Of a stretch of DNA of 26,433 nucleotides, positions 1 to 26,433 are shown piece by piece. Position 1 is the stretch's first letter. The number at the start of each line of letters is the position of its first letter. The translations under genes were made by a program, and so were the position numbers. The notes under the pieces are model-generated. The model was given only the letters and a program-made list of their open reading frames with translations. It was not told where the DNA came from and ran no database searches. The stretch covers positions 1-26,433 of IMG/VR virus record IMGVR_UViG_3300046004_000397. One strand, given 5' to 3'. The DNA comes from a virus.

Positions 1-2
1 AG

Positions 3-128
3 ATTAATCCAATTGCCCGTGAAGTACAAGATACCTTTGATGGTGTCTATGCAATGACCACAAGTTTTGTCCAAAGTCCAAATTCAGCTATTAATGGTCT
101 TATTGTCAGTGGTGATGCTGGTGTAGGT
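3..128. repeat. Terminal direct repeat, left copy (circular contig overlap)
   Basis: These 126 bases are identical to 26308-26433. The repeat lies inside the AAA+ ATPase gene, and joining the two ends gives one continuous reading frame. It is therefore best read as an assembly overlap of a circular or circularly permuted genome of about 26,305 bp, not as two biological repeats. The bases just outside (AG here, GA before 26308) differ by what looks like one A in a short run, which could be an end-of-contig error. Confidence 0.93.
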
Positions 129-785
129 AAAACATACACCGTAAAGAAAGCACTTCGAGATACAGGTCATCAGGCCAATGTAGAATATATCAAAGGTGGT
201 AAGATCACAGCCGCAAGTCTCTATGTTAAACTATATCTAAATCGTGCCAAACATCGTATTATAGTATTAGATGACTGTGATATCATACATCACGCAGAAA
301 AAAGACAAATTGTTCCAATGCTGTTAGGTGCTGTTGAATTAGGCCAAGCCGGCGAAGTTAGTTGGGAAGTAGCCCGTAAGAATCCACTTATGGAAGAGCA
401 TAATGTTCCTACTAGTTTTAAATTTGAAGGTAGTATTATTTGGATTACCAATGACAGCAAAGACAGCATAGCCAAGGCAGTACCACAATGGAAGAATGCC
501 TTGTTTAGTCGCTTTAACTTTGCTGAATGTGTGTTTACAGATGAACAGAAGTTTATGTATACCATGCACCTAGTAGAGAATCGAGATATGTTGGGTACGA
601 ATTGCCAAGAATATCCTGGTGGTTATCCAAATGCAATTATCTCCGAAGCTAGTGAATACATGAGCGACAACTATCGTAGTCTAGTAGAAGTAACACCTCG
701 CCAGGCCATTAAGATTGCAGATATCTTAAATACTAACAGTGATGTAAGTTTGCGTAAAATTATCTTACAACAGTTATGGAAATAA
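3..785 (+). CDS. AAA+ ATPase, 5'-truncated at window start (completed at 26269-26433)
   Basis: The frame is open from base 3. With the part at 26269 the whole protein is 273 aa. In full-length numbering a Walker A motif GDAGVGKT lies at 50-57, Walker B IIVLDD at 99-104, a sensor-1-like ITN at 161-163 and a possible arginine finger SRF at 182-184, close to the SRC finger of clamp loaders. A lid-like helical region follows to the end. AAA+ proteins of this size in phages are often replication ATPases, such as clamp-loader or helicase-loader types, but no partner identifies the role here. It is the first gene after the sigma70 promoter at 26172, so it is probably early. The last codons overlap one possible start of the next gene. 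The AAA+ assignment is secure and the role is open. Confidence 0.85.
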   Translation: MNPIAREVQDTFDGVYAMTTSFVQSPNSAINGLIVSGDAGVGKTYTVKKALRDTGHQANVEYIKGGKITAASLYVKLYLNRAKHRIIVLDDCDIIHHAEKRQIVPMLLGAVELGQAGEVSWEVARKNPLMEEHNVPTSFKFEGSIIWITNDSKDSIAKAVPQWKNALFSRFNFAECVFTDEQKFMYTMHLVENRDMLGTNCQEYPGGYPNAIISEASEYMSDNYRSLVEVTPRQAIKIADILNTNSDVSLRKIILQQLWK

Positions 786-22404: not shown

Positions 22405-22498
22405 GTGTAGTGTCGAGTTAAGTCATTTCTAGGCATTACACCAGTAAAACTTTCTCCAAGTTTAGAATACCCTGTTTGCCCGAGCGGGGTATTTTTTT
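22405..22498 (+). ncRNA. Candidate small RNA with three stem-loops
   Basis: The stretch between the AATAAATA box and the terminator holds three stem-loops in a row: GTGTAGTG (22405) with CATTACAC (22434), one G-U pair; AAACTT (22447) with AAGTTT (22458), loop UCUCC; and the terminator hairpin. No ORF is visible. The UCUCC loop is complementary to GGAGA, the Shine-Dalgarno core of several genes here, so an antisense role in translation is plausible. This rests on sequence structure alone, and it could instead be a terminator leader with chance pairing. Confidence 0.45.
22467..22498 (+). terminator. Rho-independent terminator
   Basis: Stem ATACCC / GGGTAT with a loop that can itself pair (CCCG-AG-CGGG), followed by seven T. 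It ends the candidate small RNA and separates it from the sigma70 promoter at 22533. Confidence 0.8.
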
Positions 22499-22532: not shown

Positions 22533-22561
22533 TTGACAATGCTAAATACTTTATATATAAT
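22533..22561 (+). promoter_or_regulatory. Consensus sigma70 promoter, early operon
   Basis: TTGACA (22533-22538), exactly 17 bases, TATAAT (22556-22561). The gene at 22600 starts 38 bases downstream with a CGGAG site. A CTAAATAC box (22542-22549) lies inside the spacer, so the region could also serve the late-type motif. Confidence 0.85.
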
Positions 22562-22599
22562 AAAAGTAATACAATATGTATCGTTCGGAGAAAAAGAAA

Positions 22600-22920
22600 A
22601 TGACAAAAATATTTGAAGACATCGACAGTCTAAGTGTTAATCGTGATATATGTAGTCCTTGGTTAAATGCTGATGACTATTGGCAATTAATTAATAGTTT
22701 TACCGTTAATGATTTAATTATGGCAGGTACTTGGTGGTTACCTAGGACTAAAGGTAAAATTACCAGCCAAGTATTTTTAGAAGCACAAGGCATATTATAT
22801 TGGTATCGAGAACACGGGTTACTAACCGATAAACAAAAAAGATGGTTAGCTAATTCAATTATTGAAAGTTGGCACTTAATCGATGTCAAATACCTCAGTG
22901 AAGTTTTATATGCCTACTAA
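22600..22920 (+). CDS. Hypothetical protein, early operon (106 aa)
   Basis: A 106-aa protein starting MTKIFEDIDSLSVNRDICSP, with Trp-rich middle (AGTWWLPRTKGKITSQVFLE) and helical C-terminus (KQKRWLANSIIESWHLIDVK). No known motif is recognised. It is first after the consensus promoter, which suggests an early host-takeover or replication role. Start 22600 is preferred to 22576 because CGGAG lies 9 bases upstream of it. Its end overlaps the next ORF. Confidence 0.6.
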   Translation: MTKIFEDIDSLSVNRDICSPWLNADDYWQLINSFTVNDLIMAGTWWLPRTKGKITSQVFLEAQGILYWYREHGLLTDKQKRWLANSIIESWHLIDVKYLSEVLYAY

Positions 22921-24043
22921 CTACCAACCCAACTTCAATGACCCACGAATTCAATTAAGAGCTCGCAGAGCTTTAGGGTTTGCTTTAGGTGTTTTAAATG
23001 AGACTCGCTCACATCAATGGAGCACAAGATATTTAGATACTTACTTCGGGCAACAACAAAATAAACTCAGTGGTTGGCTACGCAGTCAATTGGTTATAGT
23101 TACAGATGATCATTGGAATAAAGACACAGGTGTTTGTAAAAGTTATATATTGAATCGCACAGGTGCTATTGAGTTAGCCACTCTCTTAGAGGTGAAGGTT
23201 TTTGATAAACACCAACACATACCCTATTGTATTACAAGTCAAGAAAACATCATTAAAGAGTGGTGTCGCACTGAGTTTAGTAAGGAATTAGCTACAAAAG
23301 AATTCCCTTATGAAGAGAAAAGCAATAGGTATTGGCATCCATTACAAAATGTTCGTAGTCAATATCGACGAGAAGTTCTTGCTGACGCAGACTTAACCTA
23401 TCAATATGACATTGAATGCTGTGCTCCAACACTCATTATGTATAGGGCACATCAATTAGGTATGAGTGAATACTTATTTGCCATGCGAAGTTATCTTAAA
23501 CGCAGAACTGAAATAAGAGCAATGATTAGTCGTGACTTAGAAATACCCGAAGAAATAACCAAACGAATAATCAATGCCTTATTCTGTGGTGCTCGCATAG
23601 CAAGAAACAAAGACAGCGATATATTCCAATACCTCAATGAGGACCCAGCAAGACTTATTGCTCTAAGAGAACACCAGTACATACAGCAACTAAGAAAAGA
23701 AATAAAGCTGTGTTGGAGTTATATTGAAGCCAGTGCGGCATATGAAAAGAGATATACTATTACTAAGAAAGGAAATCAAAAGAGACAACCAATGAACTCC
23801 AAGAGGAAATGGGGTGTTTATTTTCAATTAGAACAGAAAGTAATGGCAGTAGTAAGAACTCATTTAGATATTACCAATAACAAATATTTCTTAGAACACG
23901 ACGGATGGACTTGCCAAAGAGCAATCGATGAATTGGCAGTAGAACAGGCAATAAAAGACTTAACTGGTTTCACGGTGAAACTAAATTTAGATAAACACCA
24001 ACACATACCCTATTGTATTACAAGTCAAAAAAAGGAGAAATAA
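22883..24043 (+). CDS. Possible palm-domain polymerase / replication protein
   Basis: A 386-aa protein without certain family. Three stretches fit in order the motifs of family A-like single-subunit polymerases: motif A YDIECCAPTLIMYRA with D176; motif B-like RAMISRDLEIPEEITKRIIN then ALFCGARIA (about 212-240); motif C FLEHDGW with H339 and D340, like the HD pair of DNA polymerase I and T7 RNA polymerase. It is much shorter than known members and has no exonuclease domain. DKHQHIPYCITSQ occurs twice, at 108-120 and 370-382, encoded by identical 39-bp DNA. With the AAA+ ATPase it is the best candidate for replication. The start may be 22910. A polymerase role is inference only. Confidence 0.5.
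   Translation: MSNTSVKFYMPTNYQPNFNDPRIQLRARRALGFALGVLNETRSHQWSTRYLDTYFGQQQNKLSGWLRSQLVIVTDDHWNKDTGVCKSYILNRTGAIELATLLEVKVFDKHQHIPYCITSQENIIKEWCRTEFSKELATKEFPYEEKSNRYWHPLQNVRSQYRREVLADADLTYQYDIECCAPTLIMYRAHQLGMSEYLFAMRSYLKRRTEIRAMISRDLEIPEEITKRIINALFCGARIARNKDSDIFQYLNEDPARLIALREHQYIQQLRKEIKLCWSYIEASAAYEKRYTITKKGNQKRQPMNSKRKWGVYFQLEQKVMAVVRTHLDITNNKYFLEHDGWTCQRAIDELAVEQAIKDLTGFTVKLNLDKHQHIPYCITSQKKEK
23204..23242 (+). repeat. 39-bp direct repeat, copy 1 (within the polymerase-like gene)
   Basis: Identical to 23990-24028 and in the same reading frame, encoding DKHQHIPYCITSQ. The two copies are 786 bases apart (a multiple of 3), so recombination between them would remove 262 codons in frame. Confidence 0.95.
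23990..24028 (+). repeat. 39-bp direct repeat, copy 2 (3' end of the polymerase-like gene)
   Basis: Identical to 23204-23242. It forms the last conserved part of the gene, ahead of a short KKEK tail and the ribosome site of the next gene (AAAGGAG), so the 3' end may have been copied from the internal site. Confidence 0.95.
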
Positions 24044-24955: not shown

Positions 24956-25294
24956 ATGGCAAATCCAAAAACACTAACTAACCCTTATGGTGGAGGTCGC
25001 CCACCCGGACCACAACCACACCTAGTAAAATACCCCGGCATCCTAGCCACTCAGCGTCGTGCGTATGCTCGAATGAAGGCACAGGCTAAATTTCGCAGAG
25101 AACCTTTTACACTTACCTGGGATGAATTTTATAGTATATGGGCACCTGTATGGGAACATCGCGGTCGCAGTCTAGAACAACTATGTCTAAGTCGTATTGA
25201 CTGGACTGAAGCTTGGGAGATTAACAATGTGCAGATTATTACTCGCGAAGAACACTTTAAAATACAAGGCCGACAAAGCCAAGGACTAAAATAG
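24956..25294 (+). CDS. HNH-like hypothetical protein (112 aa)
   Basis: A 112-aa basic protein: QRRAYARMKAQAKFRREPFT then LTWDEFYSIWAPVWEHRGRS, ending LSRIDWTEAWEINNVQIITR and EEHFKIQG. The final R-x-D..W..N-x-x-I-I-T-R..H pattern resembles the C-terminal half of small phage HNH-type proteins, but the first catalytic His pair and zinc Cys residues are missing. A degenerate or divergent nuclease, or a DNA-binding protein, is possible. A strong ribosome site (AAGGAG) is present. The gene ends in TAG just before the next promoter. Confidence 0.45.
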   Translation: MANPKTLTNPYGGGRPPGPQPHLVKYPGILATQRRAYARMKAQAKFRREPFTLTWDEFYSIWAPVWEHRGRSLEQLCLSRIDWTEAWEINNVQIITREEHFKIQGRQSQGLK

Positions 25295-25500: not shown

Positions 25501-25702
25501 TGCACAAGCAATATTCAAAACAGAACAAGAAGGTAAATTTACCTCAGCTGGATTTGTAGTAGAAGTAGATTTATCATTTCCTGATTATAGTCTTGGTATA
25601 GATAAAACAAGTGAGCTATTTGAATTTATTAAACAGGGCAAATGTGATGGATTTGAAATAGATCTTGGCAATAATAAGAAACAACTCATAATAAAATCAT
25701 AA
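25493..25702 (+). CDS. Hypothetical acidic protein (69 aa)
   Basis: A 69-aa protein starting MFNAQAIFKTEQEGKFTSAG then FVVEVDLSFPDYSLGIDKTS. A strand-rich N-terminus and an ELFEFIKQGKCDGFEI helix-strand end suggest a small alpha/beta fold. AAGGAG lies 8 bases before the chosen start. An ORF start at 25442 lies inside the previous gene. The stop overlaps the next start (TAATG). Not recognised. It is an early-operon gene by position. Confidence 0.6.
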   Translation: MFNAQAIFKTEQEGKFTSAGFVVEVDLSFPDYSLGIDKTSELFEFIKQGKCDGFEIDLGNNKKQLIIKS

Positions 25703-25929
25703 TGAAACTACTCTTACTATTATTACTTGCGGCCAATGCCCAAGCCGAAACAAAGTATAACCCATATACTCGAAGCTATGATACAGCACAGTCTGCAAGT
25801 CAGACAATTCAACCTCGTTATAATCCATATACTACAAAATATGAAATGACCACACGAGATAGTCAACTGGTATACAATCCTTACAATACTAGCTATACCT
25901 ATGTGCCCAAGCCAGCCAAAAAGCCTTAG
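25702..25929 (+). CDS. Secreted protein with three YNPY repeats (75 aa)
   Basis: A 75-aa protein with a Sec signal peptide (MKLLLLLLLAANAQA, probable cleavage after AQA) and then three similar repeats: YNPYTRSYDTA, YNPYTTKYEMT and YNPYNTSYTYV. The mature part has no Cys and ends in a basic PKPAKKP. Such tandem Tyr/Pro/Asn repeats occur in some bacterial secreted proteins. Exported phage proteins of the early region often act in envelope changes or superinfection exclusion, but here the job is unknown. Coupled to the gene before it by TAATG, and overlapping the next ORF by 29 bases. Confidence 0.6.
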   Translation: MKLLLLLLLAANAQAETKYNPYTRSYDTAQSASQTIQPRYNPYTTKYEMTTRDSQLVYNPYNTSYTYVPKPAKKP

Positions 25930-26268: not shown

Positions 26269-26433
26269 ATGTCAACAATGACACAATCTAGTTTTACCTC
26301 AGTTAGAATTAATCCAATTGCCCGTGAAGTACAAGATACCTTTGATGGTGTCTATGCAATGACCACAAGTTTTGTCCAAAGTCCAAATTCAGCTATTAAT
26401 GGTCTTATTGTCAGTGGTGATGCTGGTGTAGGT
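26269..26433 (+). CDS. AAA+ ATPase, 5' part (continues at base 3 of the window)
   Basis: Start codon and first 55 codons of the AAA+ ATPase described at 3-785. ATG 26269 follows AAGGAG by 8 bases. The first 30 residues (MSTMTQSSFTSVRINPIARE then VQDTFDGVYA) are present only here. From 26308 the sequence is the terminal repeat and continues at base 129. The frame is unbroken across the join, which supports closing the contig into a circle. Confidence 0.85.
   Translation, partial: MSTMTQSSFTSVRINPIAREVQDTFDGVYAMTTSFVQSPNSAINGLIVSGDAGVG
26308..26433. repeat. Terminal direct repeat, right copy (circular contig overlap)
   Basis: Identical to bases 3-128. See the left copy. It lies within the AAA+ gene, giving a unit length of about 26,305 bp. 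Confidence 0.93.

Follow-up and report, generated by a model that had tools for sequence, protein, structure and literature searches.

A minimal family A polymerase with origin-like direct repeats in its own gene: a candidate phage primase-polymerase

Introduction

What does a protein of fewer than 400 residues with polymerase-like motifs do in a small phage genome in which no other replication enzyme is detected? The question is raised by a gene in the virus record IMGVR_UViG_3300046004_000397, the whole of which (positions 1-26,433, referred to as the window) was analysed. From the order of three motifs, the original prediction had proposed a divergent polymerase or a primer-making enzyme. 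Here we examine the gene, its predicted structure, its relatives and a pair of direct repeats within it, and weigh the roles that the protein may play.

Results

The genome and the polymerase operon

The two ends of the record share a 126-nt exact overlap (window 1-128 and 26306-26433) that closes a circle of 26,305 bp, and the genome is therefore essentially complete. Pfam and PHROG scans of the window identified terminase, portal, major head and tape measure genes, and Rfam and tRNA searches of the window gave no matches. The features that surround the polymerase gene, together with an ATPase gene, are as follows.

22477..22491, + strand: terminator-like hairpin and T run on the upstream side of the operon (consensus match only)
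22533..22561, + strand: sigma-70 promoter-like site, TTGACA-17-TATAAT (12/12), ahead of the two-gene operon (consensus match only)
22576..22920, + strand: small upstream gene, 114 aa, overlapping the start of the polymerase gene
22883..24043, + strand: minimal family A polymerase gene; 386 aa in the called frame, 377 aa from the likely start at 22910
26269..26433, + strand: AAA+ ATPase gene (phrog_1250), 5' part, crossing the closure point of the circle
1..785, + strand: remainder of the AAA+ ATPase gene (273 aa for the whole protein)

The reading frame has the predicted length of 386 aa, and YDIECCAPT (residues 175-183), NALFCGAR (231-238) and EHDGW (338-342) all lie where they had been placed. 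Most relatives begin at 'M.Y.PNF.D', which is residue 10 of the called frame, so that, judged from this alignment, the true start is likely the ATG at 22910. A start at this position leaves an 11-nt overlap with the upstream gene. The upstream gene was considered as a universal SSB partner of the polymerase and rejected, being present in only 6/69 loci; the AAA+ ATPase, whose family was matched in 5/32 records only, was likewise discarded as a universal partner.

Among the 19 window ORFs, Pfam and PHROG named no polymerase, primase or helicase other than the gene under study, and the DNA_pol_A and DnaB_C models had no match in the window genome or in the 31 related records. The earlier claim that the genome carries no other replication enzyme apart from the AAA+ ATPase holds, in a closed circular genome, for the families tested, a negative that covers only the families searched, by a loose first look.

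Three other genes of the window deserve mention. A small HNH/endonuclease VII-like gene (24956-25294, weak phrog_1035 match) has relatives in 15/33 loci, mostly 3' of the polymerase. Positions 776-1492 encode a 238-aa protein without a PHROG family, in which repeat modules recall, by eye, NUMOD/HNH homing proteins. The 75-aa protein encoded at 25702-25929 has a signal-like start followed by YNPYT-type repeats.

Conserved catalytic motifs

The protein is divided into an N-terminal domain and a catalytic core that contains four motifs.

22922..23197, + strand: N-terminal domain, residues 14-105, winged-helix-like topology H-E-H-H-E-E-H in the model
23270..24007, + strand: catalytic core, residues 130-375, minimal palm and fingers (AlphaFold2 model and fold matches)
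23327..23347, + strand: motif 1, R149...Q155, template-strand Arg hairpin, conserved in 69/69
23405..23425, + strand: motif A, YDIECCA with D176; A181 at the place of the Pol I E710 ribose gate
23561..23590, + strand: motif B (O-helix), K227-x8-G236
23897..23905, + strand: motif C, H339-D340-G341

R149, Q155, D176, R212, K227, W278, Y313, E317, H339 and D340 are 100% conserved across the 69 aligned members, and G236 and G341 are kept in 68 of them. Motifs A, B and C, as originally predicted, are thus beyond chance. K227 lies 51 residues from D176, and its distance to G236 equals the K-x8-G spacing of the O-helix positions in Pol I and T7 RNA polymerase. Set against the O-helix pattern R-x3-K-x7-YG, K227 and G236 stand at canonical spacing; there is no Arg at K-4, and R212 is invariant instead. 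The O-helix Tyr is replaced in the phage clade and kept in the plasmid and SRB7757 relatives described below. Motif 1, R149...LQ155, resembles 'TGRLSS..PNLQNIP' of Pol I. The R149/Q155 motif, the winged-helix-like domain, the mobile-element and plasmid relatives and the direct repeats were not part of the original prediction.

The position of the Pol I ribose-gate Glu (D+5) is Ala (A181) in 64/69 members; DYSQIE is kept by 23/25 proteobacterial Pol I. The position of Pol I F762 is mostly Asn (N231 in the window), and that of Y766 carries no Tyr and is mostly A, C, Q, N or S. The missing ribose gate suggests that sugar choice may be relaxed in the clade.

A predicted family A palm

An AlphaFold2 model was obtained from 32 sequences (pLDDT 90.7, pTM 0.85). 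Foldseek against the PDB placed family A DNA polymerases first, with Pol I fragments at E 1.7e-4. When the model was superimposed with VIA-align, T7 DNA polymerase (1tkd) matched at Z 13.0 over 224 residues (3.9 Å), Klenow at Z 12.1, Pol theta at about 12 and yeast mitochondrial RNA polymerase at Z 11.0; the family A structural matches span Z 11-13 across 211-278 residues. Matches in BFVD include virophage replication proteins, phage replication proteins and uncharacterised phage proteins. In the model, D176 is located on the first palm strand (173-177) and D340 on the motif C hairpin (335-337 / 341-344), both expected palm elements. The original prediction was to be refuted by a predicted fold unlike a palm domain, or by D176 and D340 lying far apart; as far as the model allows, it passes this test, with a family A palm and both residues on palm elements. 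We regard the polymerase fold as very likely.

The assignment to family A is well supported by the motifs and the predicted structure, on which it rests because the profile comparison with canonical Pol I was not significant (hhalign, 1-27% from the phage clade). The value rose to 54% only if the comparison was rooted on a plasmid member, against phage-type PolA. The sequence link to Pol I is strongest via the Polaromonas plasmid members, in which SGRLY..LQN and K-x7-YG are kept. Pfam PF00476 (DNA_pol_A) did not match the protein, Pfam, PHROG and NCBIfam held no family for it or its relatives, and a PDB sequence search with the A1 and A2 profiles returned nothing meaningful.

The model further points to an enzyme that lacks exonuclease domains and has a thumb that is small or missing: ahead of the core it places only short helices (120-131 and 133-138). 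The N-terminal domain appears winged-helix-like: most of its structural matches, weak as they are at Foldseek E >= 0.18 and Z <= 4.8, are winged-helix proteins, plasmid initiator structures among them.

Relatives in phages, integrative elements and plasmids

In viral contigs the full profile was matched at 59 loci and the N-terminal domain at 53, the two sets partly overlapping, and 3 further loci were found in bacterial genomes. The loci were selected by presence of the polymerase, which is therefore common to all; the next most widespread gene occurs in only 15/33 loci, and the genomes around the polymerase thus differ much. Clade members are found in integrative elements of Caballeronia and Janthinobacterium, and 2 bacterial members adjoin tyrosine integrases.

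Distant, uncharacterised homologues are present on the Polaromonas plasmids pW9NP1 (WP_181377809.1) and pH8NP1 (WP_181374945.1), the catalytic core being homologous (tblastn E 5e-7, 26% identity). On pW9NP1 (L145:37-2497) the homologue, annotated as hypothetical, lies immediately upstream of repA, and three iterons are found in the region downstream of repA. RepA beside these homologues is a protein of its own. The plasmid proteins differ from the clade in having their own N-terminus of ~220 aa, a separate RepA and iterons, and in keeping the Tyr of K-x7-YG. A homologous catalytic domain was also detected in a 767-aa protein of Nitratidesulfovibrio phage SRB7757 (hmmsearch E 7e-13), which is larger than the clade proteins and comes from a 142-kb phage.

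Two loci depart from the usual arrangement. In one relative (L049:372-1565) the polymerase gene is split by a stop, with its second half in another open stretch. At L115:2923-3258 a lone N-terminal domain lies beside a large serine recombinase and is perhaps the remnant of an integrated element.

Judged against the open-access literature, the most fitting description of these proteins is a new clade within the minimal family A polymerases. With this undescribed clade, the small set of family A enzymes for which a priming role in DNA synthesis is suspected gains members that are smaller than most of the set and lack the usual ribose gate.

Direct repeats within the gene and at its end

Two copies of a direct repeat bracket the catalytic domain.

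23200..23247, + strand: direct repeat copy 1, 48 nt, with core TACCCTATTGTATTACAAGT at 23220-23239; encodes part of a disordered loop (residues 107-121)
23986..24033, + strand: direct repeat copy 2, with core at 24006-24025, at the gene end; 46/48 identical to copy 1

Copy 1 sits in a low-confidence loop of the model. When the span from the gene to 300 nt past the stop was searched, a direct repeat of at least 18 nt was present in 39/70 members, as against 95/951 control windows (10%). The geometry of one copy in the loop and one at the stop codon is seen in 29/70 members, the window included, with a spacing of 755-867 nt that is often no multiple of three; 10 other members have tandem repeats near or past the stop codon, and 31/70 have no repeat of at least 18 nt within this span. 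Two relatives show further units 3' of the gene: GCGCATATAGCTATGTGAATACATCTTTC-type repeats (L116:3650-3900; two copies, with a third similar by eye) and an iteron-like 24-nt unit in tandem (L033:11270-11390).

Between genomes, the last ~20 nt of the repeat are partly conserved (TAYCCTAKTGTANNACAAGTC), and the first ~25 nt, mostly rich in A and C, vary by genome. The two copies are nonetheless near-identical inside one genome. The element is translated in a different frame in the window than in most relatives and is therefore conserved as DNA. The core pattern was found in 11 stretches among 2.9 million viral contigs, and 10 of these carry the polymerase gene; the eleventh opens with a sequence matching the 3' copy of relative L016. 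Both strong copies in the window genome are at the polymerase gene, and none was found elsewhere in it.

The repeat sequence tracks the N-terminal domain when the catalytic domain is controlled for (partial r 0.24, p 0.003); the reverse comparison, with the N-terminal domain controlled for, gave a partial r of 0.15 (p 0.037). Linkage could contribute to this correlation because the first repeat copy adjoins the N-terminal domain. As at iteron-type origins, near-identical direct repeats are present at a putative replication gene and diverge between replicons.

Discussion

A proposed initiator and primase-polymerase

On balance, we favour the reading that the protein is a self-contained origin-binding primase-polymerase with origin-like repeats in its own gene. 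Good support exists for the polymerase fold, for a conserved active site and for the repeats, which are limited to the polymerase gene; we infer that the enzyme is catalytically active and makes primers, as well as its choice of sugar, its binding to the repeats, the origin and the dependence on the host. The N-terminal domain would bind the near-identical direct repeats inside the gene and at its end, which would be the origin. At these repeats the catalytic core would lay the first strand or primers, possibly with ribonucleotides since the Pol I ribose gate is absent, and elongation would be carried out by host replication proteins (DnaB, Pol III). A primer-making role is suggested by the TV-Pol and CcPol-MP precedents, by the absent ribose gate and by a genome in which no other replication genes were detected. 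An origin within the gene of its initiator has a parallel in lambda O, which acts at ori located inside gene O (PMC6022878).

Several observations count against parts of this proposal. The window has no DnaA box, and no consistent GC-skew switch was seen at the gene across relatives; both weigh against the origin reading. Identity extends across whole ~40-nt units, genome-variable parts included, which exceeds the needs of a protein-binding site and counts against the repeat-binding reading. The 31/70 members with no repeat of at least 18 nt, the weakness of the winged-helix matches and the fact that no SSB-like partner was identified also speak against the proposal. These bracketing repeats, alike within but not between genomes, raise the question of how their identity persists. 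A bolder form of the proposal, which we hold only tentatively and consider rather doubtful, is a one-gene replicon in which a single protein, joining an initiator to a minimal family A primase-polymerase, recognises the repeat pair bracketing the catalytic domain or primes there, probably with RNA or mixed primers, and in which the copies are kept identical by copying or base-pairing between them.

Alternative roles

The protein might instead be a T7-like single-subunit RNA polymerase for phage transcription, with the repeats as its promoters, but this seems unlikely. The Glu ribose gate is absent (A181), and T7 RNA polymerase has Gly at this position. Mitochondrial RNA polymerases match the fold at Z ~11, and on inspection the minus strand of the repeat, TAATACAATAGGGTA, is vaguely like the T7-type CACTATAGGGA; an RNA polymerase option was also raised for divPolA2 (Yutin et al. 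2024, PMC11348598). However, the genome holds just two strong copies of the element, both at the polymerase gene, so there is no late-gene promoter set, and the idea of genome-wide promoters was rejected on this ground. A perfect sigma-70 site already stands ahead of the operon, and the promoter-like strand would give transcripts antisense to the gene.

That the enzyme is the main replicative DNA polymerase, copying the entire phage genome, is likewise improbable. It is the sole polymerase detected in a closed genome, it has the fold of family A DNA polymerases, and CcPol sets the precedent of an enzyme that extends primers with dNTPs by itself (PMC7581432). Yet the clade enzyme would be without exonuclease domains, with a minimal thumb and no ribose gate, no phage DnaB-type helicase was found, and a replicative role is unnecessary if host Pol III elongates.

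A function other than genome replication, such as repair, DNA-end synthesis or counter-defence, would agree with the variable gene neighbourhoods and with divPolA2, which adjoins a full PolB and was suggested to act in repair (PMC11348598). We consider it quite unlikely, given the small genomes without other detected replication genes, the adjacent repA on the plasmid, and the limitation of the repeats to the gene, which suggests replication control. Instead of an origin, the repeats could be recombination sites on either side of a mobile cassette that carries the catalytic domain. This reading would suit copies that are near-identical per genome and often bracket the catalytic domain, but it is very unlikely and was set aside, since no empty sites were found, both domains occur together in 113 open frames, and N-terminal and catalytic distances are congruent (r 0.70). 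Of the two exceptions with the N-terminal domain only, one is a truncated contig and the other an apparent remnant.

The origin-binding primase-polymerase that we favour would give small phages seemingly without replication genes a plausible initiator and, with origin, initiator and polymerase within one gene, is a case that can be tested.

Comparison with known systems

The divPolA2 proteins of barbaviruses and Vibrio phages (Yutin et al. 2024, PMC11348598) are phage palm polymerases of 400-430 aa, likewise without exonuclease and thumb, and have the motif order GRxY..LQN..R and YD in common with the clade. They differ in motif C, apparently FDE rather than HDG, in the Glu retained at D+5, in adjoining a regular PolB and in belonging to larger phages. 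The one member compared, AUR84708, scored 1.2 bits against the clade catalytic HMM, which is not significant, with motif 1 and motif A set correctly in the alignment. The clade is not filed in divPolA2 because this sequence comparison gave no significant match. AUR84708 itself (L147:25469-26761, minus strand) has relatives in many Vibrio, Aeromonas and Rheinheimera phages, including ICP1, annotated as hypothetical among the matches listed.

The TV-Pol family (Iyer et al. 2008, PMC2579912), which includes Sputnik V13 and other virophage polymerases, is a predicted primase-polymerase family. Like the clade, it comprises enzymes of small viruses and mobile elements that are reduced to a minimal family A core with no nuclease domains, and it has the Arg hairpin and two palm Asp residues (here the invariant R149, D176 and D340). 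Among the BFVD fold matches to the clade protein, virophage polymerases rank with the best. RxxxK is absent here, K-4 being variable and the invariant R212 lying 15 residues before K227, and for this reason the clade is not filed in TV-Pol; no sequence link between the two was detected. TV-Pol is linked to a D5 helicase, resolvase or integrase. Here no helicase was named by Pfam or PHROG among the window ORFs, and integrases adjoin two bacterial loci. The N-terminal thumb of TV-Pol consists of two antiparallel helices; ahead of the core, the model shows only the short helices 120-131 and 133-138. The clade differs in its winged-helix-like N-terminus and the repeats in the gene.

For CcPol-MP (PolA-SSB), template-dependent, primer-independent synthesis is proven (PMC7581432, PMC10061031). 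It too is a standalone family A core from a mobile element, with an iteron-type origin nearby. CcPol, a proven primase, keeps the E710 and F762 equivalents (PMC7581432), whereas the clade is without both residues; it requires the SSB-like MP for priming, and no such partner was identified for the clade. The clade protein may work like the TV-Pol and CcPol enzymes.
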